Origin: Roseibium salinum
GTDB taxonomy: Bacteria; Pseudomonadota; Alphaproteobacteria; Rhizobiales; Stappiaceae
Assembly: GCF_026240905.1 (NCBI RefSeq)
Contig: NZ_JAPEVI010000003.1
Coordinates: 4,528,501-4,592,500, forward strand
Length of the DNA: 64,000 nt
Reading direction: 5' to 3'
A program made the translations under genes and the position numbers. The number at the start of each line of letters is the position of its first letter. Position 1 is the stretch's first letter. Positions 8,753 through 23,848 of this stretch are shown here, piece by piece. The notes under the pieces were generated by a model that was not told the origin of the DNA, did not search any database, and was given only the letters and a program-made list of their open reading frames with translations.

Positions 8753-10755
8753 TGACTGCGGATGCGGCCCTCAGGGAACTCGCCCGCGAGAGCGGCGTGC
8801 ATCTGGAGTTCCAGAACATGGCCGGACAGCGGCAGGCCGCCGAGCCGCCGACCCTGCGTGCGCTGCTTGGCGGGCTGGGCGTCGCCGCGGATACGGATGC
8901 CGCCGTCGCCGATGCGCTGGCGGAGCGGCGCGCTGAAAGAATGACGCGCCGCTTGCCGCGCGAAGCCGTCCTGCCTGCCGGAAGGCCCGCGGAAATTGCC
9001 GTGCCCGGCCGCTGCGACTGGAGCCTCGTTGCAGAGGACGGCGCGGAAGTCCGTGTGGGCGCAAGCGACACTGGCATCACGCTTGCCGACCTGCCGGTCG
9101 GCTATTTCACGCTTCATGTGTCGGGTGATGGTTGGACGGAAGAGGTGTTCCTGCTCTGTCCGCCACACTGCGCGCCAAGCCTTTCACAGCGGACCGGGGC
9201 GGAGCGGAGCTGGGGGATCTGCGGCGCGCTTTACGGGCTGCGGTCGCAGACGAATGGCGGGCTCGGCAACTATTCTGATCTGGCCGTGGCTGCCGGGGCG
9301 CTTGGCCGCAGCGGAGCGCAGTTCTTCGGCATCAATCCCGTCCATGCCCTGGGGTGGGCCGCGGCGGAGACGATCAGCCCCTATTCGCCGACGCATCGCG
9401 GGTTCTTCAACACCGACCATATCTCGCCGGCCACCGGTCTCGGGCCTGGCCCGGCGGGCGATCTGATCGACTATGCGGACTTCCGCAAGCGCCATCGCGC
9501 GGCGCTGGAGGCCGAATTTGCCGGCTTCATCGACAGCGGTTCGGAAAAGGACCAGGCGGCCTTTCGCCGGTATTGCCGGGCCGCGGGCCGGCCCCTCGAC
9601 GATTTCGCTGCCTTCGAGGCCTTGAGCGAGCAGCACGGCGAGGCGTTTCAGAAATGGCCGGCGGCGTTCAGAAGCCCGGGCGAGGCGGCGGATCAGGCTG
9701 CCGGCGCAAGGGCGGGCTTCCATCGGTGGCTGCAGTGGCGGGCCGAACAGCAGATCGTCCGGGCACAGCATGGCGCACGGTCTTCCGGCATGAAGCTGGG
9801 GCTCTACCTCGACCTCGCGGTCGGCCCGCGCCGGGGCGGCGCCGAGGTGTGGATGAACCGGGACACGATCGCCGGCGGCATTTCCATCGGCGCGCCGCCC
9901 GATCACCTGAGCCCGGAAGGCCAGTCCTGGGACCTTGCGGCCCACGCGCCGACCAAGCTGGCGGCCAACCGGTACGAACCGCTCAGGACCATGCTGCGCA
10001 CGCTGATGGGAAAATGCGGCCTGTTGCGGATCGACCACGCCCTGGGGCTGTTGCGCAGCTACTGGCTGCCGGACGACGGCAGTCCGGGCGGCTATGTTTC
10101 CCAGCCCTTCGAGGCACTGCTGGCCGTGATCACCATCGAAGCCTGGCGCAGCGGATGCGTGGTGGTGGGCGAAGACCTGGGCCTTGTTCCCGCAGGCTTT
10201 CGCGAAGGCCTCAACGGCGCCGGGCTCTACAGCTATGCGGTGTGGCAATACGAGGCCGATGACGGCGGCTGGCTGAGCGCGCCGGAAGACCTGCGCCCCT
10301 TCAGTCTCGCCTGTTTCAGCACCCACGACACGCCCACCCTTGCCGGGTTCTGGCACGGGATCGACATCGAATGGTGGCAAAGGATCGGCTGGCTGCCGGC
10401 CGGGGAGGCCGAAAGCCGCCATGGCCTGCGCGCGCATCAGCGCAACAGCCTCCGCGCCCATTGCGGCATCGGGCAGGAAACCGATATCAGGCGGATCAGC
10501 GCCGCCATCCACAACAGACTTGCCCGCTCGCCCGCGGCGCTGGTGGCGCTCCAACTGGACGATCTCTTCGGCGTCATCGAGGCGCAGAACCTCCCCGGTA
10601 CGATCGACCAGCATCCGAACTGGCGCCGCCGGTTTCCGGTGGCGGTCGAGCAGTTCCCCGCAGCCGGACCTCTGGCGCGTATCCGCGATCTGATGCCCGA
10701 GCGAAATCCGACTGATGAAACAATGCAGAGAGGACTGGAAGCATGTCTGGAGTGA
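8752..10755 (+). CDS. malQ: 4-alpha-glucanotransferase (amylomaltase, GH77)
   Basis: This 667-residue GH77 enzyme disproportionates maltodextrins, feeding short glucans released by GlgX back to GlgP. Motifs include LGNYSDL, LGLYLDLAVGP, LLRIDHALGL with the nucleophile Asp, VVGEDLG with the acid Glu, and STHDTPTLAGFW. The open frame begins at 8281 inside glgX, but the ATG at 8752 overlaps the glgX stop and gives the family's N-terminus. Its 3' end overlaps pgm by 13 bases. The GC-rich N-terminal ~150 residues are less conserved. Confidence 0.95.
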   Translation: MTADAALRELARESGVHLEFQNMAGQRQAAEPPTLRALLGGLGVAADTDAAVADALAERRAERMTRRLPREAVLPAGRPAEIAVPGRCDWSLVAEDGAEVRVGASDTGITLADLPVGYFTLHVSGDGWTEEVFLLCPPHCAPSLSQRTGAERSWGICGALYGLRSQTNGGLGNYSDLAVAAGALGRSGAQFFGINPVHALGWAAAETISPYSPTHRGFFNTDHISPATGLGPGPAGDLIDYADFRKRHRAALEAEFAGFIDSGSEKDQAAFRRYCRAAGRPLDDFAAFEALSEQHGEAFQKWPAAFRSPGEAADQAAGARAGFHRWLQWRAEQQIVRAQHGARSSGMKLGLYLDLAVGPRRGGAEVWMNRDTIAGGISIGAPPDHLSPEGQSWDLAAHAPTKLAANRYEPLRTMLRTLMGKCGLLRIDHALGLLRSYWLPDDGSPGGYVSQPFEALLAVITIEAWRSGCVVVGEDLGLVPAGFREGLNGAGLYSYAVWQYEADDGGWLSAPEDLRPFSLACFSTHDTPTLAGFWHGIDIEWWQRIGWLPAGEAESRHGLRAHQRNSLRAHCGIGQETDIRRISAAIHNRLARSPAALVALQLDDLFGVIEAQNLPGTIDQHPNWRRRFPVAVEQFPAAGPLARIRDLMPERNPTDETMQRGLEACLE

Positions 10756-12374
10756 CTCGCAGCTGCACACCCTTTGAGGGCCAGAAGCCCGGAACCTCGG
10801 GACTGCGCAAGAAGACCCGCGTCTTCATGGAGCCCGGCTATGTCGAGACCTTTGTCCAGTCGATCTTCAACGCGATCGGCGGGGCCGGCGGCAAGACGTT
10901 CGTCGTCGGCGGCGACGGGCGGTATTTCAACGCCGAGGCCATTCAGACGATCCTGCGTATCGCCGCTGCCAATGGTGCGGCGCGGGCGATCGTCGGGCAG
11001 AACGGCCTCCTGTCGACGCCGGCTGCGTCCAACCTGATCCGCAAGCGCGAGGCCAATGGCGGGCTGGTCTTGTCGGCAAGCCACAACCCCGGTGGCATCG
11101 ACGAAGATTTCGGCCTGAAATACAACACCGCCAACGGCGGTCCCGCGCCGGAAAACGTCACGGCCGCGATCTACGAGGAGACCACGAGGATCGCGGAATA
11201 TCGCACGCTGGAGAGCGAGGACCTCGATCTTTCGGAGCTCGGCGAAAAAAGTCTCGGCGGCATGACCGTCGAAATCGTCGATCCGGTCACCGACTATGCC
11301 GCCCTGATGCGCGAGCTGTTCGACTTCGACAAGATCCGCGCGCTCATCTCAAGCGGCTTTACCCTGCGCTTCGACGCCATGCATGCGGTCACCGGTCCCT
11401 ATGCCAGGGCCATTCTGGAGGAAGAGCTCGGTGCGCCGGAAGGATCGGTGATGAATGCCGTCCCCTCGGTCGATTTCGGCAAGGGTCACCCGGACCCGAA
11501 CCCGATCTGGGCCAAGCCGCTGGTGGATCTGGTGATGTCAGACGACGGCCCGGACTTTGCCGCCGCGTCCGATGGCGACGGCGACCGCAACATGATCCTC
11601 GGCAGGGGCGTCTACGTGACGCCGTCCGACAGCCTTGCCGTACTCGCCGCCAATGCCCATTTCGCGCCGGGCTACGCCCACGGCCTGGCAGGCGTGGCGC
11701 GGTCGATGCCGACCAGCTCGGCCTGCGACCGGGTGGCCGAGAGGATGGGCATCGCCTGTTACGAAACGCCGACGGGCTGGAAATTCTTCGGCAACCTGCT
11801 CGACGCGGGCCGCGTCACCCTGTGCGGCGAGGAAAGCGCGGGAACCGGATCGGATCATGTGCGGGAAAAGGACGGGCTCTGGGCCGTGCTGCTCTGGCTC
11901 AACATCCTGGCGGAGCGCCGCCTGCCGGTGCGCGATATCCTGGCCGATCACTGGGTCACCTACGGCCGCAACTACTATTCGCGGCACGATTATGAGGCCG
12001 TGAACGCGGATGCCGCGCAGGACATGATGGCCGACCTGACCGAAAGGCTGCCGCAGCTTGCCGGAACACGGGCGGGCAATCTGGTCGTCTCGGCCGCCGA
12101 TCAGTTTTCCTACACCGACCCGGTGGACGGCTCCGTCAGCCGCAACCAGGGCATCCGGATCTGGCTCGAGGGCGGCGGCCGGGGTGTGCTGCGCCTGTCC
12201 GGCACCGGCACGGAAGGGGCAACGCTGCGCATCTACCTGGAACGCTACATGCCGGCGGACGGCGAACTTACCATCGAAACCCAGACGGCCCTGCGCGAGA
12301 TCGCCGAGGCGATCGCAGAAGTGAGCAAGCTGACCGAATACACCGGGCGCACGGCTCCCGATGTCATGACGTGA
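10743..12374 (+). CDS. pgm: Phosphoglucomutase (alpha-D-glucose specific)
   Basis: This 543-residue enzyme interconverts glucose-1-phosphate and glucose-6-phosphate. It thereby links glycogen synthesis (GlgC) and breakdown (GlgP) to central metabolism. The phosphoserine is S113 in SASHNPGG, the metal loop is SDGDGDRN, and the substrate loop is CGEESAGTGSDHVREKDG. The N-terminal PGTSGLRKK is typical. It starts inside the malQ 3' end and is the last gene of the glg operon. The next gene converges after 2 bases, and I see no hairpin terminator. Confidence 0.97.
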   Translation: MSGVTRSCTPFEGQKPGTSGLRKKTRVFMEPGYVETFVQSIFNAIGGAGGKTFVVGGDGRYFNAEAIQTILRIAAANGAARAIVGQNGLLSTPAASNLIRKREANGGLVLSASHNPGGIDEDFGLKYNTANGGPAPENVTAAIYEETTRIAEYRTLESEDLDLSELGEKSLGGMTVEIVDPVTDYAALMRELFDFDKIRALISSGFTLRFDAMHAVTGPYARAILEEELGAPEGSVMNAVPSVDFGKGHPDPNPIWAKPLVDLVMSDDGPDFAAASDGDGDRNMILGRGVYVTPSDSLAVLAANAHFAPGYAHGLAGVARSMPTSSACDRVAERMGIACYETPTGWKFFGNLLDAGRVTLCGEESAGTGSDHVREKDGLWAVLLWLNILAERRLPVRDILADHWVTYGRNYYSRHDYEAVNADAAQDMMADLTERLPQLAGTRAGNLVVSAADQFSYTDPVDGSVSRNQGIRIWLEGGGRGVLRLSGTGTEGATLRIYLERYMPADGELTIETQTALREIAEAIAEVSKLTEYTGRTAPDVMT

Positions 12375-12376
12375 CG

Positions 12377-13093
12377 CTATTCGCCGTCATAGATGTAGCC
12401 GATCCCGCGCACCGTGCGGATGACTGCCGGCTTTTGCGGATTGGTTTCGATCTTGCGGCGGATCCGGGAAATGCGGATGTCGATGCTGCGGTCGAACGGG
12501 TCCCATGACCGGTCATGCGCCCCTTCGAGGATCTGGTCGCGGTTCAGGACGCGGCCGCGGTTGGTCGCGAAGAGCTTGAGCAGGTTGAACTCCATCGCGG
12601 TGAGGGGGATTTCCGTACCGTCCTCGTCGGAAAGTTTGGCAGCGCCAAGGTCCAGCCAGTACTTGCCGAAGCGGAAACGCTGGCGGGCGTCCTCGGCGGA
12701 TGGCTTGCCTTCGGGCGACGGCAACGCCTTGCGGCGCAGCACCGCCTTGATGCGGGCCTCCAGTTCGCGCAGGTCGACGGGCTTGCCGAGATAATCGTCG
12801 GCGCCCATTTCCAGGCCGATGATCCTGTCGACCACGTCGCCGGCGGCGGTCAGCATGATGACCGGCGGGTTCTGATCCGCCTCCAGGCTCCTGAGGACCG
12901 ACAGGCCGCTTTCGCCAGGCATGTTGATGTCGAGCAGGATCAGGTCTGGCATCCCGCCTTCCAGCGAGGCGCGCAGCTCGTCGGCATTGGCCGCCTGCGA
13001 AATCCGGAAGCCCCGCCGTGACAGATATTCCGCCACCATGCCGCGGACTTCCGGTTCGTCGTCACAGACCAGGATGTGTTGTTGCTCGCTCAT
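12377..13093 (-). CDS. OmpR-family response regulator
   Basis: This 238-residue regulator has a receiver domain (about 1-120; acidic pair DDE near 11-13, phospho-acceptor D55 in LILLDINMP, K in GKPV) and a winged-helix DNA-binding domain (about 135-235, ending GIGYIYDGE). Its start overlaps the kinase stop (ATGA at 13090-13093), so it is the cognate output of the hybrid kinase upstream in transcription. It is the last gene of the globin-cyclase-kinase-regulator operon. The target promoters cannot be read from the sequence. Confidence 0.93.
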   Translation of the reverse strand: MSEQQHILVCDDEPEVRGMVAEYLSRRGFRISQAANADELRASLEGGMPDLILLDINMPGESGLSVLRSLEADQNPPVIMLTAAGDVVDRIIGLEMGADDYLGKPVDLRELEARIKAVLRRKALPSPEGKPSAEDARQRFRFGKYWLDLGAAKLSDEDGTEIPLTAMEFNLLKLFATNRGRVLNRDQILEGAHDRSWDPFDRSIDIRISRIRRKIETNPQKPAVIRTVRGIGYIYDGE

Positions 13094-15027
13094 TTGTGCC
13101 CCCCGCCGCGTGCATGCTCCAGCATTCGCTGCGCCAGGGCGCGCAGTTCGGACGGGGCGATCGGTTTTTCAAGGTAAGGCCTGTCGGCACTGTCGAGGAA
13201 ACCGCGTGCGGACGGGCTCATCGTGTCGCCGGTGACGAAGCCGACCCTGTCGGCCATCTCGGGCAGGTCCCGTGCGATGATCTCGTAGAACCCGCGGCCG
13301 CCGATCCCGGGCATGTTGAGGTCGCTCAGGATCAGGGCATACGCCTGCTTGCGGGCGAGCGACAGGGCGGTTTCCACCGATTGGGCATAATCGACCCGGT
13401 ATCCGTCACGTTGCAGGATTTCCCGGATCAGGTCAGCGACATCGGCCTCGTCGTCGACGACGAGGACGCGCGTGGCAGATACTGCGCCGGCTTCGGACTG
13501 GCTCAGGCTGTCCGCAGCAGTTTGCAGCGACGATACCGGTAGCCGCAGCACGAATGTCGCGCCCTTGCCGGGCGCGGACTCCAAGCGGATCTGGCCGTTA
13601 TGCGACGTGATCACGCGGTGGCAGAATGCGAGGCCGATTCCGGTACCCTGGCCGACCTCCTTGGTGGTGAACAGCGGGTCGAAGATACGGCTGCGGATAG
13701 ATGAGGGCACACCAGGACCGTTGTCGCTGACGCGCAGCTCGATCATGCCCGCCGCCTTGTCGAACGTCGATGATATGGTGATCCGGTCGCCGGTTCCCGA
13801 TGCGGCGATCGCCTGATCGGCATTGGTGATGAGATTGATCAGCACCTGGACGAGCTGGTCCGCATCGCCCTGGATCGACGGAAGGTTGCGCGCAAGGTCG
13901 ATCTCGACGGAAGCCTTCAGGCCGCTTGCACCGTTGCGCAGCGCTTCGATCGCGATCTCGATGGTTTCCTCAAGGTCCATCGGCGCGAGCCGCGCCGGCT
14001 GCTGCCGTGCCATTGCAAGAAACGACTTCACGATCCGCGCACAGCGTTCGGCGGCTTCGGAGATCTTCTCGAGCCGGCGCAGGACCTCGGGATCCGCCGT
14101 CTCCTCGCGCATCATCAGCGCGTGGCCGACAACGACCGACAGCGGATTGTTGAGTTCGTGCGCGACGCCGGCGAGTAGCTCGCCGAGCGCGGACATCTTC
14201 TCGGCCTGGAAGATCTGCTCGCGCTGTTCGGCGAGCTTCTTCTGCATCTCCACTTCCCGGGACATGTCGACCGTACTGGAGACCACGACCTCCTCGCCGC
14301 GATAGTCGATCACCCTTGCCGAGACGGCGCAGGGGAAGGTCGATCCGTTCGGCCGTACGCCGGTCACCAGCATGTCGTCGACCCTGCCGTCCGGCAGAAG
14401 CGCGGTGACGAAATCCGCCCGTTCCTCCCGGCTGGCGAAATGCTCCTGCGAATTGTGCGTGGTGCCGAGAAGCTCTGTGGCGGCGGGCGAGCGATAGATG
14501 ATGTGCCCGTCGCCGATCCGCGACATGACGACATTGGCCGGGCAGGCCTCCAGCACCTTGCGCAGGAGGATGTCCGCCTGGCGTTCGTGCTCCTCGTACT
14601 GACGCTTGTCGGTGAGGTCCGACTGGGTGACGACGAAACCGCCGACCGGGGTCTGGCGCATGGCGATTTCATGCATGGCGCCGTTGGAAAGTTCGATCTC
14701 CAGGAGCGCTGAGGTGTCGGCGCCGGTCGCAAGCCGGTTTTCCATCCAGCGCAGGCGATCCAGCGTTTCTGAGGAAAGGGCGCCGCGCAGACCGCATTCA
14801 CGCAGGATGAGTTCCCACCCGATTCCCGGTTCCAGCAGGTCGGCAATCAGCGGATTGAGCTCGCGGTAGCCGGCGTTGCAGCGCACCAGCCGCGCTTCCT
14901 CGTCGAAGAGCGCCAAACCTTCCGACATCGCCTCGATGACTTCGCGGAGCATGTCCGGCGAGCTGTCGCCTTGGCGAGGCGGCGTACCGTCCGCCCTGTC
15001 CGCCGGCATGTCGGAACGAAGGATCAT
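13090..15027 (-). CDS. Hybrid sensor histidine kinase, PAS-PAS-HisKA-HATPase-REC
   Basis: This 645-residue protein has no membrane segment and so appears cytosolic. Two PAS-like regions (about 28-145 and 152-265) precede the dimerisation helix, with the phosphorylated H290 in GVAHELNNPLS. The ATPase domain follows (N-box NLITNADQA, DNGPGVP, GTGIGLAF), and a C-terminal receiver carries D569 in LILSDLNMP. A cytosolic PAS sensor fits detection of redox state, a gas or a small ligand. It overlaps both neighbours by 4 bases. The C-terminal receiver may be a phosphate sink or feed the OmpR-type regulator next door. Confidence 0.93.
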   Translation of the reverse strand: MILRSDMPADRADGTPPRQGDSSPDMLREVIEAMSEGLALFDEEARLVRCNAGYRELNPLIADLLEPGIGWELILRECGLRGALSSETLDRLRWMENRLATGADTSALLEIELSNGAMHEIAMRQTPVGGFVVTQSDLTDKRQYEEHERQADILLRKVLEACPANVVMSRIGDGHIIYRSPAATELLGTTHNSQEHFASREERADFVTALLPDGRVDDMLVTGVRPNGSTFPCAVSARVIDYRGEEVVVSSTVDMSREVEMQKKLAEQREQIFQAEKMSALGELLAGVAHELNNPLSVVVGHALMMREETADPEVLRRLEKISEAAERCARIVKSFLAMARQQPARLAPMDLEETIEIAIEALRNGASGLKASVEIDLARNLPSIQGDADQLVQVLINLITNADQAIAASGTGDRITISSTFDKAAGMIELRVSDNGPGVPSSIRSRIFDPLFTTKEVGQGTGIGLAFCHRVITSHNGQIRLESAPGKGATFVLRLPVSSLQTAADSLSQSEAGAVSATRVLVVDDEADVADLIREILQRDGYRVDYAQSVETALSLARKQAYALILSDLNMPGIGGRGFYEIIARDLPEMADRVGFVTGDTMSPSARGFLDSADRPYLEKPIAPSELRALAQRMLEHARGGGHK

Positions 15028-16085
15028 GACTGCGACCCGTAGGTTTGCGGCTGGTCGGCGACGGCCTCCATGCGGAAGATCTCGGTTTCAGTGCCGCCGA
15101 CAAGCTCACGTGGGCCCATCGATATGCGATTGAACTTCGCTTCGACCAGTTGAGCGATCTCGCCGTCAGCGGCAACACTCATCGGTCCGGCGTGTCCGCG
15201 AATGCGCAGGGCCCGCGTCACGGCCGGGCCGAAGACGTCGTAGATGTATTTCTGCACGCCGACCACGGAGCCGATCACCGCTCCGGTGGAGATGCCGATG
15301 CGGCACTGCCACTGGACCGGATGGCTGCCATTGCGTTGCTTGAGGTAGCGCAGGAAACGGATGGCGGCGTTCGCCACGGACATGGCGTGATCGGGAGCGG
15401 CATCCGGCATGCCGGAGACGGTGATATAGGCATCGCCGATCGTCTTGATGCGTTCGCAGCCGAACTGTTCGCCGATCCGGTCGAAGGCGCTGTAGATGTC
15501 GTTGAGTTCGCTGACGATGACGCCCGGATCGAGTGTGGCGACCATGTCGCCGAAGCCGCAGAAATCGAGCGTGAGGACCGACACAGGGTCGTAGAGTCGG
15601 GGCGTGACCACGCCGAAGGTCTTGTATTCCTCGTAGACCGACCGCGGCATCATGTTGAGCAGGAGCTTTTCCACCTGCTCCTTTTCCCGCTTGAGCTCGC
15701 GGGTGTTGCGTTCGACCATCATGGAATAGGAATCGATCATCGACTCAAGTTCCTTGATACGGGTGATGTTCTGGCACACCAGCACCGCGATGCGCTCGCC
15801 GCCGTCGAGGGCGCGGTTGAAGTCCATCGCCACCGTCATCGTGCGGCGCTTGACCTTGAAGGTCGTCTCGGTCGCAAACCGTCCCCCGTCGGAGAGGGCC
15901 TCGCGCAGCGCCTCCGGGTCCAGGGAGCTGAAGAAATCCGTGAGCCGGGCATCGGCATCCGGTTCGCCGAACCATTCCGCGAAGGTGTCGTTGTGAAAGC
16001 GGAACTTGAATTCCTTCAGATCAAGCAGGGCGACACCGACGCCGATGGCGCGCAACAGTTGTTCGTTGATGGCTTCAATCGACAT
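15024..16085 (-). CDS. PAS-linked class III adenylate/guanylate cyclase
   Basis: This 353-residue cytosolic protein has an N-terminal PAS-like domain (about 8-108), a charged coiled-coil helix (about 110-150, ending LLLNMMPRSV) and a class III cyclase domain (about 165-345). The PAS plus signalling helix resembles the HNOBA segment of soluble guanylate cyclase. Metal aspartates D174 and D218 are present, and K214 and D283 occupy the positions that specify ATP. The transition-state Asn is replaced by T290, while R294 is kept. It sits between a truncated globin gene and a histidine kinase gene, so haem-based control of cyclic nucleotide synthesis is inferred. Confidence 0.9.
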   Translation of the reverse strand: MSIEAINEQLLRAIGVGVALLDLKEFKFRFHNDTFAEWFGEPDADARLTDFFSSLDPEALREALSDGGRFATETTFKVKRRTMTVAMDFNRALDGGERIAVLVCQNITRIKELESMIDSYSMMVERNTRELKREKEQVEKLLLNMMPRSVYEEYKTFGVVTPRLYDPVSVLTLDFCGFGDMVATLDPGVIVSELNDIYSAFDRIGEQFGCERIKTIGDAYITVSGMPDAAPDHAMSVANAAIRFLRYLKQRNGSHPVQWQCRIGISTGAVIGSVVGVQKYIYDVFGPAVTRALRIRGHAGPMSVAADGEIAQLVEAKFNRISMGPRELVGGTETEIFRMEAVADQPQTYGSQS

Positions 16086-16088
16086 GAT

Positions 16089-16445
16089 CTACACCACGAT
16101 CAGCTTGCGGCGTTGTTCGAAACCCTGCACGACCGTCTCGACATCCTGAGGCGTCATTCCATGGTCGGTCAGCGTTTCGGCGAGGATCTCCGACAGCCTG
16201 TCGAAGTGACGGGTATGTATCTCCAGGTGATGGTGCATCCTGGAAATTTGTTCGTCCGTGTACGAGGCGGGACCGCCGAGCAGCGAGGAGATGAATTTTG
16301 TCTGGTGATCGACGATGCGTGCCATGTCGACATCGTCGAAGAACGGACCGATGTCGTCGTCGTCAAGCAGCCGGTTATAAAGATCGAGTACGATGCGGCT
16401 GACTTTCGAGAAGCCGCCATACTTCTGGAAAAGCGTCTGTTCCAT
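16089..16445 (-). CDS. Group I truncated haemoglobin
   Basis: This 118-residue protein has the two-over-two globin pattern: the N-terminal KYGGFSKVSRIV helix, a distal B10 tyrosine (Y23), CD1 phenylalanine (F35/F36), and a proximal histidine in the MHHHLEIH stretch (about H71). Such globins bind O2 or NO. The open frame extends upstream to 16625, but that extension is low-complexity. The ATG at 16445 with AGGAA just before it gives the family start. It is the first gene of an operon with the cyclase (3-base gap), kinase and regulator, which suggests a sensor rather than a storage role. Confidence 0.9.
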   Translation of the reverse strand: MEQTLFQKYGGFSKVSRIVLDLYNRLLDDDDIGPFFDDVDMARIVDHQTKFISSLLGGPASYTDEQISRMHHHLEIHTRHFDRLSEILAETLTDHGMTPQDVETVVQGFEQRRKLIVV

Positions 16446-16798: not shown

Positions 16799-16847
16799 GC
16801 AAGCTTGCGATCGTCTTGCCATCGGAAAACGAACTTTGGAGAAGACG

Positions 16848-17009
16848 ATGTTGAGTACAGTCAGGAATGTCATACAACGCCAGGTGAAACGGTCCCGTGA
16901 CCGGCGCGCCTACGAAATGTTGCTGATGAGCGAGGATCGGCTGTTCGCCGATATCGGCGTGAGCCGCGACGAGGTGGCAAGGTGCATCCGCAATTCACGC
17001 TACCTGTAA
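16848..17009 (+). CDS. DUF1127 small protein
   Basis: This 53-residue basic protein is too short for many gene finders. It begins MLSTVRNVIQRQVKRSRD and carries the DUF1127 core (LLMSEDRLFADIGVSRDEVARC). Small DUF1127 proteins in alphaproteobacteria are linked to RNA-binding and to phosphate, carbon and stress responses; a role here is inference. A GGAGAAG ribosome site precedes the ATG, and a strong hairpin terminator follows at 17038. It stands alone behind a complex promoter with tandem GAAAC elements. Confidence 0.85.
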   Translation: MLSTVRNVIQRQVKRSRDRRAYEMLLMSEDRLFADIGVSRDEVARCIRNSRYL

Positions 17010-17210: not shown

Positions 17211-18371
17211 TCACGCGGCCTGTAGGCCGCGTTCGAAGGCGGACTGCATCCACTCCTGCTCCTGCTTCATGACGGCGTTGAGCCGCTTGTGCAGGGTCTT
17301 CAACTCTTCAAGGCTCCAGCTGAGCGAGGCAATCGTGTCGGTGACCTCGAACAGCTCCCGTGCGAGTACGTCGCGTGCTTCCTGGTAGCGGTCGAGCGTG
17401 CCGCCGGCGATTGCGCGCGCAAGGATTTCGGCGTCCCGCAAGGCATCCGTCATGCCGTGGGCCGTCAGAGGATCCTTGAAATGGCTCGCGTCGCCGACCA
17501 GGGTCCAGCCGGGACCGGTGGCCCGGCGCATGTGACCTTTCTGGCCGGGAAAGCCGATCGGCCGCGAGGAAAGCGTTGCGCCGGCAAGCGCCTCGCGAAG
17601 CTCCGGGAAGCTGGCCGCCACGGCGAGCAGCCCTTCTTCCAGCGAACCGCGCATGCCGGAAAGATAACGCTCGCGCGGGACCCCGACAAAGACGCATGTC
17701 TGGCCGTCATTGGTCGGTATGACGCCGGCCGCTAGGCCCGGTACGAAATACGAGCGGTTGCCGCGATGTTCCATGCCGTCGAAATAGCCGTAGACGAACG
17801 ACGTCGCGTTGCGGGAATGTCGTTGGATCTCGGCATCGGCAAAACGTGCCACGGACGAGCGCCGCCCGTCGGCACCGATCACGATATCGCCCGTCACGGA
17901 GAACGTTCCCCCGCCTCCAGCGCCGGCGAGGATGCCGCGTACCCGGTCGTCGGGGCCATGTAGCAGTCCCCGGCAGGACAGGCCGTAGCGTGCGTCGACA
18001 CCTGCCTCGATGGCCGCGTCCGCGAGGACGCGGTCGATGACATAGCGGCGGGGTGCATAGAGCGCGTCGACGCCGTGCAGCGGCTTGATTTCGAATTCGA
18101 TCGCCTCGTCTCCATAGAGATAGGCAGCGGTGCGGATGGGCGGCGTGCCGGCGTGCCTGATCCGGTCGAGCACGCCCCATGAACCGAGCTGCATCACGGC
18201 GCCGCGCATCAGCGCGTGCGTGGAGAGCGTGTCGCTTCCATGCGCGCTGCTGTCGATCATCAATACCCGCGCGCCCTGACGGGCGAGCAGCATGGCGGTG
18301 GCAGCGCCTGCGCAGCGCGCGCCGACGACGATGGCGTCATAGTGCTTGGAGAATGTCCCATTGAGCGGCAT
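17211..18371 (-). CDS. FAD-dependent oxidoreductase (geranylgeranyl reductase/monooxygenase-like)
   Basis: The 386-residue protein has an N-terminal FAD-binding Rossmann motif (VVGARCAGAATAMLLARQGA), a central IGADGRRSSVARF segment matching the DG motif of group A flavoprotein monooxygenases, and GDASHFKDPLTAHGMTDAL, which binds the FAD phosphate. The substrate cannot be predicted. It overlaps the upstream flavin monooxygenase gene by 35 bases, so the pair is one transcription unit probably acting in a shared pathway. The GAAAC-type promoter in front of the pair would control both. Confidence 0.85.
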   Translation of the reverse strand: MPLNGTFSKHYDAIVVGARCAGAATAMLLARQGARVLMIDSSAHGSDTLSTHALMRGAVMQLGSWGVLDRIRHAGTPPIRTAAYLYGDEAIEFEIKPLHGVDALYAPRRYVIDRVLADAAIEAGVDARYGLSCRGLLHGPDDRVRGILAGAGGGGTFSVTGDIVIGADGRRSSVARFADAEIQRHSRNATSFVYGYFDGMEHRGNRSYFVPGLAAGVIPTNDGQTCVFVGVPRERYLSGMRGSLEEGLLAVAASFPELREALAGATLSSRPIGFPGQKGHMRRATGPGWTLVGDASHFKDPLTAHGMTDALRDAEILARAIAGGTLDRYQEARDVLARELFEVTDTIASLSWSLEELKTLHKRLNAVMKQEQEWMQSAFERGLQAA

Positions 18372-19635
18372 GGCGGGTTCCTTTCAGGCAATCTGTTTCG
18401 GGGATGTGGTTCAGGTGGCGGGCAATATCGGCGAGGAGCTCCTCGGCATCCCGGCCGACACCGTCGATGAAGGTGGAGGACCGGCGGCGCATGAACGGCA
18501 GGCCGAGGACGAAAAGCCCCGGCACGTCGCTGACGCCGCCGATGTTGCGGATCTCGCCTGTTTCGTCGACGACCGGCAGTTGCAGCCACGGATAGCTGCG
18601 CCGGTATCCGGTCGCCCAGACGACGGTGCGTATGCCCGCCGCGCGCAGGTCCAGGCGGGTGATCTTGCTGCCCATCGCTCCGGGCCAGGCCCAGGCGAGC
18701 GGGTCCTGCGGCGCATTCAGCCCGTGGCCTTCGATGAAAGTGTCGATGCGCGCCAGCAGCTTGCGCCGCCGCTCTTCCGCGGCCATGCATTCGTGCGAAA
18801 GGTCGGGCGCGACGCCGAGAAGATCGCCATCGGCGCCGATGGCATGACCGACAATGCGCACCCCGCGTTCCGCAAGCCGAGGAAGATCGAGCGCGTGCCG
18901 GCCGGGATGACCGATCAACTGCAGGGACGGCTGCCGGATCAGCTGCCGTGCGTCCGCATCGGGCGAGCGGCCTTCGTCCAGGAAACCGCAGGCGTCGAGC
19001 CAGGCCATGATGTCCCTGCCGCGATAACAGCGGGGAACGCGCACGTGCCGGCCGGCAGCGACCGTCACCTGATGGCCGGCCCGGTGGATTTCGTCGGCAA
19101 GCTGGATGCCGGTGGCGGACGCGCCGACCACCAGGACGCCGCCGGCCGGAAGGTCGCGGGGCGACCGATAGCGTTCGGGGACGATCTGCTCGATGTCATG
19201 GGAGAGGCCGGAGGCCCAGGCCGGCACATTCGGCCGGTCGCAGGCACCGGTTGCCACCACGACGCTTCTTGCGTTCCAGACGCCGCCGTCGGTCGTGACC
19301 CGGAAACCCGAGCCCTCGGTTGAGAGATCTATAACGCGGGTACGCGTTTCCACCGGCGCATCGAAGGACGAGCGGTAAGCTTCGAGGAAGCGGACGACAT
19401 CCGTGCGCCGCATGAAGCCGTCCGGATCGTTTCCCTGATAGGCGTAGCCGGGAAGCCGGGTCATCCAGTTGGGTGTGAGGAGGCGCAGGGAATCCCAGCG
19501 TTCGGAGTGCCAGCGTTCGCCGACATTGCCGCGCTCGATCAGGACATGATCGATGTCGGCGTCCGTGAGGCAGCGGCTCATGGCAAGTCCCGCCTGGCCG
19601 GCGCCGATGATCAGCACATCCGTTTGCTGGGGCAC
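18337..19635 (-). CDS. Flavin-containing monooxygenase (TrkA/YUCCA-like)
   Basis: This 432-residue protein shows the FAD motif GAGQAG (11-16), a second NADP-type Rossmann motif (VVGASATGIQLADE, about residue 168), and the ATGYR segment near VVWATGYRRSYPW. It therefore fits class B flavoprotein monooxygenases. FAD and NADPH dependence is known for the family; the substrate is unknown. It is the first gene of the pair with the reductase-like flavoprotein and lies downstream of a 16-base GAAAC tandem motif. Confidence 0.85.
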   Translation of the reverse strand: MPQQTDVLIIGAGQAGLAMSRCLTDADIDHVLIERGNVGERWHSERWDSLRLLTPNWMTRLPGYAYQGNDPDGFMRRTDVVRFLEAYRSSFDAPVETRTRVIDLSTEGSGFRVTTDGGVWNARSVVVATGACDRPNVPAWASGLSHDIEQIVPERYRSPRDLPAGGVLVVGASATGIQLADEIHRAGHQVTVAAGRHVRVPRCYRGRDIMAWLDACGFLDEGRSPDADARQLIRQPSLQLIGHPGRHALDLPRLAERGVRIVGHAIGADGDLLGVAPDLSHECMAAEERRRKLLARIDTFIEGHGLNAPQDPLAWAWPGAMGSKITRLDLRAAGIRTVVWATGYRRSYPWLQLPVVDETGEIRNIGGVSDVPGLFVLGLPFMRRRSSTFIDGVGRDAEELLADIARHLNHIPETDCLKGTRHAAQWDILQAL

Positions 19636-19740
19636 GATGCATCTCCATCAGTGAGGTGGATGGATCCGATGGCGGATCCGTGAACGGGCTCAGGAGTAGC
19701 AAGTGCTTGTTTCAGCACGACTTCTTTGCTGAAGTTCCAC

Positions 19741-19756
19741 GTTTCATTTGTTTCGA
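19741..19756 (-). promoter_or_regulatory. Tandem GAAAC-N4-GAAAC element, flavin monooxygenase operon
   Basis: On the minus strand this reads CGAAACAAATGAAACG, identical over 16 bases to 16751-16766 and in the same orientation relative to the downstream gene, 105 bases before the start at 19635. A further GTTTC lies at 19709-19713 within a small inverted repeat (GTGCT/AGCAC). Confidence 0.55.
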
Positions 19757-19774
19757 AAGGGACCGCCCGGCAGC

Positions 19775-19808
19775 AAAAGGCCCGCCGGGAGGTTTCCGGG
19801 CGGGCCTT
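19775..19808 (-). terminator. Rho-independent terminator after OsmC/peptide unit
   Basis: Read on the minus strand, AAGGCCCGCC and GGCGGGCCTT pair around an unpaired centre and run into TTTT. It lies about 30 bases beyond the stop of the 42-residue peptide gene and ends that transcript. Confidence 0.85.
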
Positions 19809-19837
19809 GCGGTAATGGTTCCGGGCTGAGCTGCGGG

Positions 19838-19966
19838 TCAGCGGCGGCCGGGAACATGATAGACCGAGCTCTTGTCGGTGCCGTTCAGGAAGGGGAAGTG
19901 CAGGCGCTCGAACTGGGTCCGGATCTGCGTCTTCTTCTTCGGAAAGTGGTTTGAAACGATGGTCAT
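19838..19966 (-). CDS. Conserved-looking 42-residue peptide downstream of OsmC gene
   Basis: The open frame reads MTIVSNHFPKKKTQIRTQ and ends SSVYHVPGRR, 42 residues without a signal peptide or membrane segment. It starts at an ATG preceded by an AAAGAGAT purine stretch, lies 64 bases after the osmC stop, and is followed closely by a terminator. Basic and aromatic residues predominate. I do not recognise the family. Its place as the last gene of an osmC transcript suggests a stress-related role, which is inference. Confidence 0.6.
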   Translation of the reverse strand: MTIVSNHFPKKKTQIRTQFERLHFPFLNGTDKSSVYHVPGRR

Positions 19967-20030
19967 GGTTCTATCTCTTTGTGAGGGAGAGGGGAGGAGG
20001 CGGGCGTCGTTCACGCCCGCCGGCATGAAA

Positions 20031-20612
20031 TCAGGCTGTCTTGATGTCGATCGAAACCGGCACGCCGTTGGTGAGCACGTCGAAGACCGCGGAACGGGCA
20101 ACGGACTGCTGGACGATCTGCTGCAGCTTTTCGGCCGGAGCGTCGCCCTTTATCTTGAAGGTCGCGCGGATGCCGTTGAAGCCGTTGCGGACTTGGTCGC
20201 TGAGGCCCAGGATGCCGAGAAGGTTGATATCGCCTTCGACGGTGGTCTCCACGGATTCCAGCTTCACCTGGCGGGCCGACGCGATGTTGCCGATGCCGGC
20301 AGTGATGCAGGCCGAGAGCGCGGCGAGCAGGAATTCGACCGGGGTCGGCGCCTTGTCGGTGCCGCACAGGACGCCGGGGTGATCGCCTTCCATCATGAGG
20401 TCGGTGTCGCGGGTCTGTTCGCCGCCGGCGCCGAAGTAACCGTTGATGTTGATGCGGCTGTGGGTGCCGCTCAGCCACGCGCCGTTGGCGCGGAAGGTGA
20501 ACCTGGCGAGATCGCGCTGTTCGTTGACGGCGCCGATCGTGGCCATGAGCGTCGGTACGTCGATGCCGTTCATTGCCATCTTCTCGGATTTCATCGGAGC
20601 GTTCATGTTCAT
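20031..20612 (-). CDS. OsmC/Ohr-family peroxiredoxin-like protein
   Basis: This 193-residue cytosolic protein has the OsmC fold signature TPVEFLLAALSACITAGI with C102, and a second cysteine C83 in GVLCGTD. These fit the two redox cysteines that reduce organic hydroperoxides in this family. An N-terminal extension of about 30 residues precedes the domain. The promoter region holds a GAAAC tandem element at 20766-20781. A small peptide gene follows in the same unit. Confidence 0.88.
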   Translation of the reverse strand: MNMNAPMKSEKMAMNGIDVPTLMATIGAVNEQRDLARFTFRANGAWLSGTHSRININGYFGAGGEQTRDTDLMMEGDHPGVLCGTDKAPTPVEFLLAALSACITAGIGNIASARQVKLESVETTVEGDINLLGILGLSDQVRNGFNGIRATFKIKGDAPAEKLQQIVQQSVARSAVFDVLTNGVPVSIDIKTA

Positions 20613-20765
20613 TTCCTTTCAAGCGTTCGCGGCGGCTAACCGGGCCGGCGCGGCGGGTCTGTTTGGAGGTCACGGCGGGACAGGATCTGACGGCCCTGTC
20701 GTTCTCGCCTGGTGACAGTTCTAGAAGGCCCATGTTTCAGTCCGATGCCGTCGCGGCAGGGGCTG

Positions 20766-20781
20766 CGTTTCGATTGTTTCG
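20766..20781 (-). promoter_or_regulatory. Tandem GAAAC-N4-GAAAC element, OsmC gene
   Basis: Minus-strand reading is CGAAACAATCGAAACG, matching the 16-mer upstream of the DUF1127 and flavin monooxygenase genes except in the four spacer bases and one adjacent position. It is about 153 bases before the start at 20612. An extra GTTTC lies at 20734-20738. Confidence 0.5.
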
Positions 20782-20821
20782 GATTGTGCTTCGGTTCGGT
20801 TTCCCTGCGGCGTGCACGCAT

Positions 20822-20851
20822 GAAAAAGCCCCGGTCGCATGAACCGGGGCC
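20822..20851 (-). terminator. Terminator after CysK-glutaredoxin gene
   Basis: On the minus strand, GCCCCGGTTC and GACCGGGGC form a stem with a short loop followed by TTTTT. It begins about 27 bases downstream of the stop at 20878. Confidence 0.85.
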
Positions 20852-20877
20852 GAAGTTCAGACGGGCAAACTGCACAT

Positions 20878-22374
20878 CTAGCGCGGGTGCACCCATTTCG
20901 GCAGGAAGTCGTAGGGGTCGCCGGCGACATCGTCCCGGAAGGCGACACGGTTTTCGGCAAGCATCCGCTGGAGACGCCCTTCCCGGAAATAGTCGAATGT
21001 CTCGGTGCATCCGCCGACATGCCTGCCGCCGATGAAGACCTGCGGGATCGTCGGTGATCCGGTTCGTGCATGGAGCGCCACGCGCAGGTCGCCGCCGAGA
21101 TTGTCCTTCTGCCAGGCGACGGAGTCGAGATCGACCGAGCGGTACGGGATATTGCGGCCGTCGAAGAACTTGCGCAGAGCCCAGCAGAATTCGCACCATT
21201 CGAGCGCGAACATCACCACCGGTTCCTCGTCGTCGCAGATGATCGCATCCAGCCGTTCGACGGCCTCCGGTTCCGGTTCCGGTGCTTCCACGGGTGCGAG
21301 CTTTGCGGCCTGCGGAGAGGGGGCCGGAGCGCCGATCCGGTATCCGGGTGTCGACGCGGCGATGGCCTGCTCTTCGTCATCCATGATTTCCGGCACATGC
21401 TCGAAAAGCGGCGTGGAGAGATAGCGTTCGCCGGTATCCGGGATCATGCACAGTATGGTCGAGCCGGGCTCCGCCACCTCGGCCACCTGGAGCGCACCGG
21501 CAAGCGTCGCGCCGCCGGAGATGCCGCAGAAGATGCCTTCCTGCCTGGCAAGTTCGCGCGAGAGGCGCAGGGCTTCCATGCCGCTGATCGGCATGACGCG
21601 GTCGACATGGCCCGCGGCGAACGCATCGTTCGTCAGTTTCGGAATGAAGTCCGGTGCCCAGCCCTGCATGAGATGCGGCCGGAACATCGGATGGCTCGCG
21701 GCCGCTGACCCGTCGCCGTTATAGGACTGGCCGATGCCGCTCGCGATCAAGGGGGCATTGTCTGGCTCGCAGGCGATGATCTGCGTCTCGGGACGGTGGC
21801 TCTTCAGGATGCGCGAGACACCCCGCAAGGTGCCGCCCGTGCCGAAGCCGGAAACCCAGTAGTCGAGACGCCTGCCTTCGAAATCGGCGAGGATTTCCTG
21901 CGCTGTGGTGCGCGAATGATAGTCGGGGTTCGCCTCGTTCTCGAACTGGCGGCAGAAGAACCAGCCATGCCTGTCGGCCAGCTCCCTTGCCTTGGCGACC
22001 ATTCCGGTGCCCTTTGCGGCGGCAGGTGTCAGCACCACGCGCGCGCCTAGAAAGCGCATCAGTTTGCGGCGTTCGACGCTGAAGCTCTCGGCCATGACGA
22101 CGACCAGCGGATAGCCCTTGCGGGCACAGACCATGGCAAGGCCGATGCCGGTGTTGCCGCTGGTCGCCTCGACGACGGTCTGGCCGGGCTTCAGCGCGCC
22201 GGACTTCTCGGCCGCCTCGATGATGCCGAGCGCCAGCCGGTCCTTCACCGATCCGAGCGGATTGAAGGCTTCCAGCTTGGCGTAGAGATTGATGCCCGCC
22301 GGGGCGAGCTTGCTGATGCGGACGACCGGCGTCCGGCCGATCGTGTCCAAGATGCTGTCATACGGTCCGGCCAT
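20878..22374 (-). CDS. Cysteine synthase-glutaredoxin fusion protein
   Basis: The 498-residue protein joins a PLP-dependent O-acetylserine sulfhydrylase-type domain (about 1-340) to a glutaredoxin-like domain (about 370-498). K44 in GSVKDR binds PLP, and ATSGNTGIG and GFGTGGTLRG bind substrate and phosphate. The glutaredoxin part has a C394-x-x-C397 site (WCEFCW) and a cis-proline loop GSPTIPQVFIGG. A Pro/Glu-rich linker joins them. The frame continues upstream to 22743 inside the MFS gene, but the ATG at 22374 gives the usual CysK N-terminus. A role in thiol synthesis under oxidative stress is inferred. Confidence 0.92.
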   Translation of the reverse strand: MAGPYDSILDTIGRTPVVRISKLAPAGINLYAKLEAFNPLGSVKDRLALGIIEAAEKSGALKPGQTVVEATSGNTGIGLAMVCARKGYPLVVVMAESFSVERRKLMRFLGARVVLTPAAAKGTGMVAKARELADRHGWFFCRQFENEANPDYHSRTTAQEILADFEGRRLDYWVSGFGTGGTLRGVSRILKSHRPETQIIACEPDNAPLIASGIGQSYNGDGSAAASHPMFRPHLMQGWAPDFIPKLTNDAFAAGHVDRVMPISGMEALRLSRELARQEGIFCGISGGATLAGALQVAEVAEPGSTILCMIPDTGERYLSTPLFEHVPEIMDDEEQAIAASTPGYRIGAPAPSPQAAKLAPVEAPEPEPEAVERLDAIICDDEEPVVMFALEWCEFCWALRKFFDGRNIPYRSVDLDSVAWQKDNLGGDLRVALHARTGSPTIPQVFIGGRHVGGCTETFDYFREGRLQRMLAENRVAFRDDVAGDPYDFLPKWVHPR

Positions 22375-22454
22375 GGCGGATCTCCGATAGTGCGGTTTCA
22401 ACGATGTCCGGATTTTATCGGGCGGGCGCCGTGCCCAATAGGCGCATTCAAGTT

Positions 22455-22472
22455 GCAATTGTAGCAATTGTA
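22455..22472. promoter_or_regulatory. Tandem GCAATTGTA direct repeat in divergent promoter
   Basis: Two adjacent copies of GCAATTGTA (22455-22463 and 22464-22472) form an AT-rich island in the 241-base space between the cysteine synthase-glutaredoxin gene and the MFS gene. Each copy contains the palindrome CAATTG. It looks like an operator, but I cannot name the regulator. Confidence 0.4.
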
Positions 22473-22491
22473 AGCGCCCGAACCGTTCGCC

Positions 22492-22507
22492 TGAAGCAAT
22501 CGAAACA
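22492..22507 (+). promoter_or_regulatory. GAAGC-N4-GAAAC element, MFS gene
   Basis: TGAAGCAATCGAAACA resembles the tandem GAAAC elements at 16751, 19741 and 20766 and is oriented toward the MFS gene, 108 bases before its ATG. One half-site has a G in place of A, so support is weaker than for the other copies. Confidence 0.35.
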
Positions 22508-22615
22508 CGTGTCGCCGGCCAGGGAAATCGTGCGGAAACGTGCGCCCGGCAGTCTCCCTCCATACTGATAAACGGCGCGGGAATTTCCTCGCCTCTGTCC
22601 CCGGAGGGGAAATCG

Positions 22616-23848
22616 ATGACACTGGAATCATTTGCCGCCCGGCCGCTCGCAGCGAGCGACCATGGCGGCGTCAAGGCGGCGCTTGGCGCCACACTCGGCA
22701 TGGCAACCGGCTTCGGCTCGCTGGCCCTGACCTCGGTCTTCATCGGGCCGCTGGGAACCGAATTCGGATGGTCGAAATCCGAATTGAGCCTGTGCTACAC
22801 GCTCGCGGCCGTCGGCATGGCCATCGGGGGTGTCGTCTGGGGACGTATTTCGGATCGCACCGACATCCGCTACCTGCTCTACATCGGTGGGGCCTTCATC
22901 GTCCTGCCGTTGCTGATCATGTCGCAGGCGACGGACCTCTGGCAGTTCTATGCCGCGAACCTGATGCTCGGCGTTGCGGGGTTCGGCTGCCTCTATGCGC
23001 CGCTGGTCTCGGCGGCGGGCGAATGGTTCGAGAGCCGGCGCGGGCTGGTGATGGGGATCGTCACCGCCGGCGGCGCGCTCGGACAGGGCGTGATGCCCTA
23101 TGCCGCGGAGAGCTTCATCTCGGCTGTCGGCTGGCGGGAGGCTTTCTTTCTCGTCGCCGTTGGCGTGCTCGTCCTGCAGTTGCTCGTCGGCGTGCTGGTA
23201 AGGCGGCGGGGCCCGGCTGCCGTCGCCGCGTGCCACAATGCCGTCGGCCGCGGCCGGTCCGGCACCTTGCAGCGCCCCCGGCTGATGCTGCTCGCGCTTG
23301 CCGCCTTCCTGTGCTGCGCCTGCATGGGCACGCCGCTGGTCCATCTTGCCGGTTTCGTGACGTCGGTCTGCGGTTCCTCGGCTTTCGGCGCGACGAGCCT
23401 GCTTGTGGCGATGATCTTCGGGGCGATCGGCCGGGTCTGTTTCGGCATGATCGCCGACCGGTACGGGAACCTATTCAGCTACGGCAGCGCGTCGCTGCTG
23501 CAGACCCTGTGCATTCCGGTCTTTCCGCTGCTGCAGTTCGAACTGCCGATACTGGCCCTGTCGGCCGTCTTCGGCTTCGGTTTTGCCGGCAACATGACGT
23601 GCCTGATCCTGTGCGTGCGGGACGAGGCGCCTGCGGAGGCGTTCGGCGGCGCGATCGGACTGGTGATGTTCATCGCCTGGGCCGGCATGGGTGTCGGCGG
23701 CTACCTGGGCGGCGCGCTGTTCGACCTTTCCGGCGCCTACGGCCTGCCGTTCCTCGTGGCAGCGCTCTTCGGTGTCGCCAATCTTCTGGTCCTGGCCGTC
23801 CTGGGCCTTTTGCGCAGGACGGCCAGGCAGACCGGAAGGAGCACATGA
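22616..23848 (+). CDS. MFS transporter (oxalate/formate antiporter or monocarboxylate type)
   Basis: This 410-residue integral membrane protein has about twelve hydrophobic segments. It shows the MFS loop-2 pattern GRISDRTDIRYLL and a matching central motif FGMIADRYGNLFSYG. The overall pattern resembles the oxalate:formate antiporter/monocarboxylate group, and the substrate is unknown. It is divergent from the cysteine synthase-glutaredoxin gene, so sulfur compounds or organic acids are candidates (inference). The gene is followed by the convergent malonate operon after 9 bases. Confidence 0.85.
   Translation: MTLESFAARPLAASDHGGVKAALGATLGMATGFGSLALTSVFIGPLGTEFGWSKSELSLCYTLAAVGMAIGGVVWGRISDRTDIRYLLYIGGAFIVLPLLIMSQATDLWQFYAANLMLGVAGFGCLYAPLVSAAGEWFESRRGLVMGIVTAGGALGQGVMPYAAESFISAVGWREAFFLVAVGVLVLQLLVGVLVRRRGPAAVAACHNAVGRGRSGTLQRPRLMLLALAAFLCCACMGTPLVHLAGFVTSVCGSSAFGATSLLVAMIFGAIGRVCFGMIADRYGNLFSYGSASLLQTLCIPVFPLLQFELPILALSAVFGFGFAGNMTCLILCVRDEAPAEAFGGAIGLVMFIAWAGMGVGGYLGGALFDLSGAYGLPFLVAALFGVANLLVLAVLGLLRRTARQTGRST

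Follow-up and report, generated by a model that had tools for sequence, protein, structure and literature searches.

A truncated globin and a cyclase-like protein of Roseibium salinum as a possible split haem sensor beside a histidine kinase

The globin–cyclase operon and its proteins

The window analysed here, a 64,000-nucleotide stretch of the Roseibium salinum genome, contains four genes that, as read from the open reading frames (ORFs), form a single minus-strand operon: a group 1 truncated globin, a protein with a PAS domain, a coiled coil and a class III cyclase domain, a hybrid histidine kinase and an OmpR-type response regulator. The globin gene (16089..16445, 118 aa) runs from an ATG at 16445 to a TAG at 16089, and three bases (ATC) separate its stop from the ATG of the cyclase gene at 16085. 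The cyclase gene (15024..16085, 353 aa) ends with a TGA at 15024 and is joined by an ATGA overlap to the kinase gene (13090..15027, 645 aa; ATG at 15027, TGA at 13090), which is joined by another ATGA overlap to the regulator gene (12377..13093, 238 aa; ATG at 13093, TAG at 12377). The gene order, the three-base gap and both overlaps given in a first-pass annotation of this DNA are confirmed by the ORFs and their junctions.

The globin has a Bac_globin match of 55 bits in Pfam, with Protoglobin below its cut-off, and its best relative in the PDB is 3aq5 (E 4e-15, residues 3–114 of 118). Judged by this similarity over nearly the whole chain and by its key residues, it is a group 1 truncated haemoglobin, the class to which it had first been assigned. 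Helix positions were set by alignment to known structures and, under what we take to be the correct position names, the pocket consists of B10 Tyr23, CD1 Phe36, E10 His47, E11 Gln48 and F8 His71. These residues are identical in 110/110 aligned globins of the family described below. The 110-row counts omit L072 (where the frame runs to 722 aa), L085 (where the globin is cut), and L119 and L124, both globin–cyclase pairs with broken reading frames.

In a profile alignment the E10 His aligns with a His of the Synechocystis cyanoglobin 1s69, and more distant group 1 globins, from 13 other fetched loci, have Lys, Arg, Met or Ser at this position. In cyanobacteria, the sixth haem ligand of GlbN is the E10 His. 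Excerpts of a published account describe the cyanobacterial group 1 globins as six-coordinate, with LysE10 as the sixth ligand in Chlamydomonas THB1 (PMC7082302). From the conserved E10 His and these six-coordinate relatives we infer a six-coordinate haem in this globin family, whose sixth ligand would have to leave before O2, NO, CO or cyanide binds.

The cyclase-like protein consists of a PAS domain (about residues 16–106), a single long helix or coiled coil (107–145) and a cyclase domain (162–341); the motif LLLNMMPRSV is found at residues 141–150. Pfam assigns PAS_8 and Guanylate_cyc (116 bits), and the tail of HNOBA matches over the coiled coil below its threshold (19.8 vs 23.4). In a Foldseek search with an AlphaFold2 model (mean predicted local distance difference test, pLDDT, 84; predicted template modelling score, pTM, 0.55), chains of soluble guanylate cyclase (sGC) lead, the top match being human sGC alpha over 382 columns. 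These near full-length matches bear out the sGC-like PAS–coiled-coil–cyclase layout proposed earlier.

As in animal sGC, a PAS domain is followed by a coiled coil and then by the class III catalytic domain, and a haem sensor, here a putative one, precedes the PAS. However, Pfam finds no H-NOX domain in the 353-aa chain, which starts with the PAS, and the putative haem sensor is a separate globin instead. The active site also differs. The GTP-specifying pair of sGC is Glu/Cys; this pair is absent from the window protein, which has K214 and D283 at the purine site, the residues of adenylate cyclases. Five of the six canonical catalytic residues are kept (D174, K214, D218, D283 and R294), while the sixth, the transition-state N290, is replaced by Thr. 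Because of this replacement the protein, which has both the Guanylate_cyc domain and the fold, is filed here as a class III fold and not as an enzyme. As there is a single cyclase gene, a homodimer is presumed, unlike in sGC.

The kinase contains PAS_7, PAS, HisKA, HATPase_c and receiver domains, with H290 in the HisKA domain and D569 in the receiver as phospho-acceptors, and the regulator has a receiver (Response_reg, with D55) and a winged helix (Trans_reg_C). With a HisKA His, an ATPase domain, a receiver Asp and an adjoining regulator gene, this is a hybrid two-component system. No Hpt domain was found by Pfam in the four operon proteins; the rest of the genome was not searched for one. 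The true phosphorelay that had been proposed is therefore too strong a term, and direct transfer from the kinase to the regulator would be as likely.

Conservation and co-inheritance of the pair

Three surveys with the cyclase as query covered the own family, named species genomes and a sample of the class. In the own family, 16/87 genomes contain a cyclase relative at E 1e-40, giving 20 loci including the window, and in all 19 others a globin is found immediately upstream of the cyclase. Among the named species genomes the best 80 of 219 confirmed loci were examined, and the globin is upstream in 80/80, although in L085 it is cut by the contig end. By NCBI order, these 80 belong to Rhodobacterales (52), Hyphomicrobiales (17), Sphingomonadales (4), Rhodospirillales (3) and Sneathiellales (2), with two unassigned. 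The class sample of 337 genomes contains 15 strong relatives (E <1e-100), the own genome included, whose scores are clearly separated from those of cyclases with similarity confined to the catalytic part (E 1e-50 and weaker); all 15 have the globin, in L124 with a broken frame.

Overall, 113/113 non-self loci have the globin gene as the immediate upstream neighbour of the cyclase gene, on the same strand. The gap ranges from -11 to 65 bases and is at most 10 in 104 of them, the exact value depending on the start codon chosen by the script. In contrast, no globin is found within about 1.5 kb of 22 control cyclases (0/15 fetched cyclases of the catalytic-only type and 0/7 paralogues of the own genome). 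Such adjacency greatly exceeds what chance would give, and the conserved globin–cyclase gene order that the first-pass annotation had named as its own test is observed. In a phylum-wide sample only 3/398 genomes match at E 1e-60; these three, which include the own genome, are all members of this class.

Two other kinds of globin gene were seen. A second Bac_globin of the own genome (G000:C3:861166-861504) sits about 1–2 kb from two other cyclases, and was set aside as a cyclase partner since it is on the opposite strand and other genes intervene. A second globin gene also occurs near the globin–cyclase pair in ten loci (e.g., L075:3731-4195), with Pfam Globin (PF00042) found in the single member scanned.

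The two genes also share their history. In the cyclase tree, a quick, unrooted one calculated without eight catalytic columns, the 41 cyclases whose next gene downstream encodes a kinase, the one in the window among them, share one side of a branch with support 100. In the globin tree, which rests on separate data and few columns, the same 41 rows split off with support 98. Four genomes contain two copies (L010/L026, L011/L027, L017/L025 and L020/L028), and there both globins and cyclases sort by copy. This shows that globin and cyclase are co-inherited.

The closest relatives of the window among the best 80 of 219 (77–86% identity) are metagenome-assembled genomes (MAGs) named Notoacmeibacter, Oricola and Nitratireductor, i.e., from three families, whereas relatives in the own family reach 44–56%. 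As the MAG relatives are the closer ones, a block transfer of the cassette is suggested. A plasmid copy was found in one record, pLA3 of Novosphingobium pentaromativorans, whose annotation shows the complete cassette, with an OsmC, two flavin adenine dinucleotide (FAD) oxidoreductases, a 'group 1 truncated hemoglobin', a cyclase, an ATP-binding protein (the kinase), a regulator, a pyridoxal phosphate (PLP) enzyme and a decarboxylase. These observations could also be explained by a loose neighbourhood spread by horizontal transfer, in which the adjacency is a relic of an ancestral operon and the products make no functional contact. However, across at least five orders the other neighbours are reshuffled and yet the pair is split in 0/113 loci, and the ratio of non-synonymous to synonymous substitution rates (dN/dS) of the globin between the window and L031 is 0.08, so we regard a mere relic as highly improbable.

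Relatives of the globin are also found within signalling proteins. All five long ORFs from the alphaproteobacterial class sample that were scanned with Pfam contain a Bac_globin domain within CheA, which in L158, L163, L164 and L167 is located between the Hpt and dimerisation domains. In L161, where the start of the ORF is off the locus, there are two Bac_globin stretches, the better one between the ATPase and CheW parts. Thus, group 1 globins do work as domains of signalling proteins in this class. Together with the 113/113 adjacency and the sGC-like layout, this makes the globin, by comparison, a well supported candidate for the haem sensor in trans of the PAS-cyclase, as was first proposed. 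Neither a truncated-globin/cyclase pair nor a truncated-globin CheA is the topic of any title or abstract start among the literature matches listed, a search that had subscription journals and preprints outside its scope.

Alternatively, the globin may be an enzyme or a handler of O2 or NO (an NO dioxygenase, a peroxidase, or a supply of O2 to flavoproteins) that is only co-regulated with the cyclase. Its B10 Tyr, E11 Gln and F8 His match what we take to be the residues of HbN from Mycobacterium tuberculosis, which, according to excerpts of a published account, has high NO-dioxygenase activity, PMC7082302 being the source for the activity only. The flavoprotein and OsmC families described below occur in 28–36 of 81 loci, and in L153 (G125) a globin of this family, with the E10 His, is found without a cyclase beside a Rieske ring-hydroxylating oxygenase. 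In rhizobia, Rieske genes are frequent neighbours of truncated globins, as stated in excerpts of PMC4648194. However, a cyclase is beside the globin at every cyclase locus examined and the flavoprotein families at under half, the E10 His is of the six-coordinate type, and the relatives embedded in CheA point to signalling. We therefore find a purely enzymatic globin distinctly unlikely.

Instead, we suggest that globin and cyclase-like protein combine as the two subunits of a single haem-based sensor for a gas (or for redox state), in which the free group 1 globin would take the place of an H-NOX domain. A ligand would displace the E10 histidine from the haem iron, the globin may then alter its contact with the N-terminal PAS domain and, going by the architecture, the dimeric coiled coil could relay this change to the cyclase domain. 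The PAS part is pointed to as the partner of the globin by L172:2126-2937 (L156/L172, G396), where an E10-His globin overlaps by ATGA a 146-aa gene whose product combines a PAS-like segment with a helix and lacks a cyclase domain; the PAS nature was read by eye, as Pfam gave no family.

Arrangements of this kind are known from other haem proteins. Bacterial H-NOX and NosP are haem sensors in proteins of their own that act in trans on a histidine kinase or cyclase encoded next to them. The window likewise has a gene for a putative stand-alone haem sensor beside that for a signalling enzyme; it differs in that the putative sensor is a group 1 truncated globin, the partner is a PAS-cyclase and the kinase is a third gene. 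In the globin-coupled sensors (HemAT, globin-DGC and HemAC of Leishmania), a fused globin of the sensor family controls the output, which in Leishmania is an adenylate cyclase. In contrast, the window globin is of the T family and is encoded by its own, unfused Bac_globin gene, and no Bac_globin domain is listed for the best 120 of 2294 homologues, so that no globin–cyclase fusion was seen among these. Cyanobacterial GlbN and Chlamydomonas THB1 are group 1 globins, as in the window, and to the best of our knowledge no cyclase partner is known for them. Many bacteria have stand-alone truncated globins, most of which, as far as we know, have no assigned partner. Here a whole globin family has a nearly fixed one, which makes its role directly testable and provides a bacterial, separable model for a haem domain talking to a PAS–coiled-coil–cyclase.

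Catalytic residues and the histidine kinase

The kinase-linked clade differs from the other rows in its catalytic residues. Without a directly downstream kinase, N290 and R294 are both kept in 67/69 rows, the exceptions being L035 and L037. In the 41 kinase-linked rows N290 is kept once, R294 in 17 and K214 in 10 (31 have Arg), and both N290 and R294 are lost in 23, while the metal-binding D174 is kept in 40 and D218, the other metal Asp, as well as D283 in all 41. Outside these counts, L085 has a downstream kinase together with A290 and T294. Among the control cyclases, N290 is present in 21/21 that could be scored and R294 in 19; L008 gave no alignment. Going by the title of a 1997 study by Yan, the Asn and the Arg are reportedly essential in mammalian adenylyl cyclase.

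Among 101 positions that hardly vary in the other rows, there are 81 that at least 90% of the kinase-linked rows retain and 11 that fewer than half of them retain, including K214, N290 and R294. From the other rows to the kinase-linked ones, the mean column entropy falls from 1.75 to 1.08 in the PAS and from 0.57 to 0.17 in the coiled coil, as expected for a narrower clade, but rises from 0.75 to 0.97 in the catalytic domain. At the same time, dN/dS between the window and L031 is 0.12 for the cyclase, 0.13 for the kinase and 0.16 for the regulator, and close pairs within the kinase-linked clade give 0.02–0.12 for the cyclase. Low dN/dS in combination with drifted residues indicates that the protein is being maintained while its catalytic centre has loosened, and not that the gene is decaying.

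The two-component genes are widespread but not universal companions of the pair. In a clustering of the genes of the 80 loci and the window, the kinase family is present in 76/81 and the regulator family in 68/81, and BLAST matches both in 69/80 loci; among the 11 that lack a regulator, three span less than 15 kb. Loci with no kinase downstream mostly have it on the opposite strand, some 3–9 kb upstream and with the regulator after it; 34/39 such loci contain both. Some Roseovarius-type loci have a downstream kinase that lacks the receiver domain in addition to an upstream hybrid kinase. In the distant L188 (G367), a kinase, an OmpR-type regulator, the globin and a cyclase of the intact type are colinear on one strand. 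L188 is also the only one of 14 wider regions to match both kinase and regulator; L191, L195 and L198 have weaker kinase matches and ten have none; a two-component system therefore does not accompany every pair. Orthologues of the regulator with at least 64% identity occur in 4/337 genomes of the class (the own genome, G421, G108 and G343). Since G108 and G343 are without a strong cyclase relative, the regulator can exist independently of the globin–cyclase pair.

We propose that in the other lineages, which have the intact type, the output is probably cyclic AMP. In the clade of the window, the kinase directly downstream and the drifted catalytic centre make control of the histidine kinase and, via the kinase, of the OmpR-type regulator the probable main output, and the cyclase domain may serve as an enzyme of low activity or as a relay that binds nucleotide. 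The cyclic-nucleotide switch of the first-pass annotation is thus probably right for the family; for the window operon it is doubtful, given the change of N290 to Thr and the drift of the clade. As a whole, the reading of a two-part, sGC-like haem sensor, in which the cyclase part is drifting in the window from enzyme to kinase regulator, has, in our judgement, an even chance of being correct.

Several results weigh against this reading. Both N290 and R294 are lost in L035 and L037 without a kinase directly downstream, and L072, which is outside the counts, has I290 and R214 (with D174, D218, D283 and R294) and no kinase match in 21 kb. The tree shows just one change in kinase linkage, and an independent-pairs test against catalytic loss has a single pair, i.e., the association with drift is one event and not a repeated one; that the kinase was gained in this clade, instead of lost elsewhere, is read from the midpoint root of an unrooted tree. 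The tree distances of the globin correlate highly with those of the PAS, the coiled coil and the catalytic domain alike, so the PAS is not singled out. A tethered globin–cyclase model is of low confidence (pLDDT 69, pTM 0.51, linker below 50) and shows no interface. Finally, from the globin side, a linked cyclase is found for 14 of the top 16 globins of the class sample (E <1e-30), while L153 and L156/L172 have none, so that the bond is strong without being absolute.

The window cyclase itself has lost only the Asn, with both metal Asp, K214, D283 and R294 in place. It could therefore still be a working globin-gated adenylate cyclase, with the kinase in a separate, merely co-expressed pathway, and the retention of N290 and R294 in nearly all rows without a downstream kinase is also consistent with this. 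A precedent is Ma1120 of Mycobacterium avium, a class III adenylate cyclase with Ala at the position of the transition-state Asn that, according to excerpts of its description, is still active, so that loss of the Asn alone need not abolish catalysis; the same excerpts do not mention a globin partner (PMC4215837). However, the clade of the window has lost N290 in 40/41 and R294 in 24/41 rows, the Asn is lost in none of the scorable controls, and eight further nearly fixed positions besides K214, N290 and R294 have gone the same way. For these reasons we consider a working cyclase in the window fairly unlikely.

A drifting receptor can also be stated more generally, with the group 1 globin as the dedicated haem subunit of an sGC-like cyclase and one widespread clade in which this receptor has become a pseudocyclase that binds nucleotide and controls a histidine kinase. 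This wider form we put forward tentatively, as doubtful though possible. If true, it would be a natural switch from a second messenger to phosphotransfer inside one receptor family. Because related genomes contain both intact and eroded forms of the receptor, such a change of output can be tested pair against pair.

Neighbouring genes

Upstream of the operon, four further minus-strand genes are found in the window. Their families come from the same gene clustering, each named after a single scanned member or a few. A FAD_binding_3 flavoprotein (17211..18371) belongs to a family present in 28/81 loci, and a Pyr_redox_3 flavin oxidoreductase (18337..19635) and an OsmC-like protein (20031..20612) to families present in 36/81 each. 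The homologue of the Pyr_redox_3 protein in L031 scores 334 against TIGR04046, below the cut-off of 498. The fourth is a fusion of a cysteine-synthase-like PALP domain with a glutaredoxin (20878..22743; longest ORF, start not refined), from a family in 35/81 loci. Its homologue in L045 passes the cysK cut-off, and the glutaredoxin domain is present in three of the four scanned members (the window, L044 and L045) and not in L061.

The genes at 17211-22743, joined elsewhere by a PLP decarboxylase (13/81), look like a pathway that travels with the sensor genes. The regulator plausibly controls the flavoprotein, OsmC and cysteine-synthase genes. With cysteine synthase, glutaredoxin, OsmC and flavoproteins nearby, stress by sulfide, cyanide, peroxide or NO is in each case thinkable.

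Other families in the clustering are an alpha/beta hydrolase (40/81) and an S-adenosylmethionine (SAM) methyltransferase (29/81). On the plus strand of the window, an ORF resembling a major facilitator superfamily (MFS) transporter (22616..23848), named from its homologue in L067, has a family in 14/81 loci. At the other end, a phosphoglucomutase-like ORF, so named by eye (10743-12374, plus strand), converges with the regulator gene, with two bases between their ends. Divergent from the globin operon, a 57-aa ORF (16836-17009, plus strand) ends in RNSRYL and presumably resembles DUF1127/YjiS.

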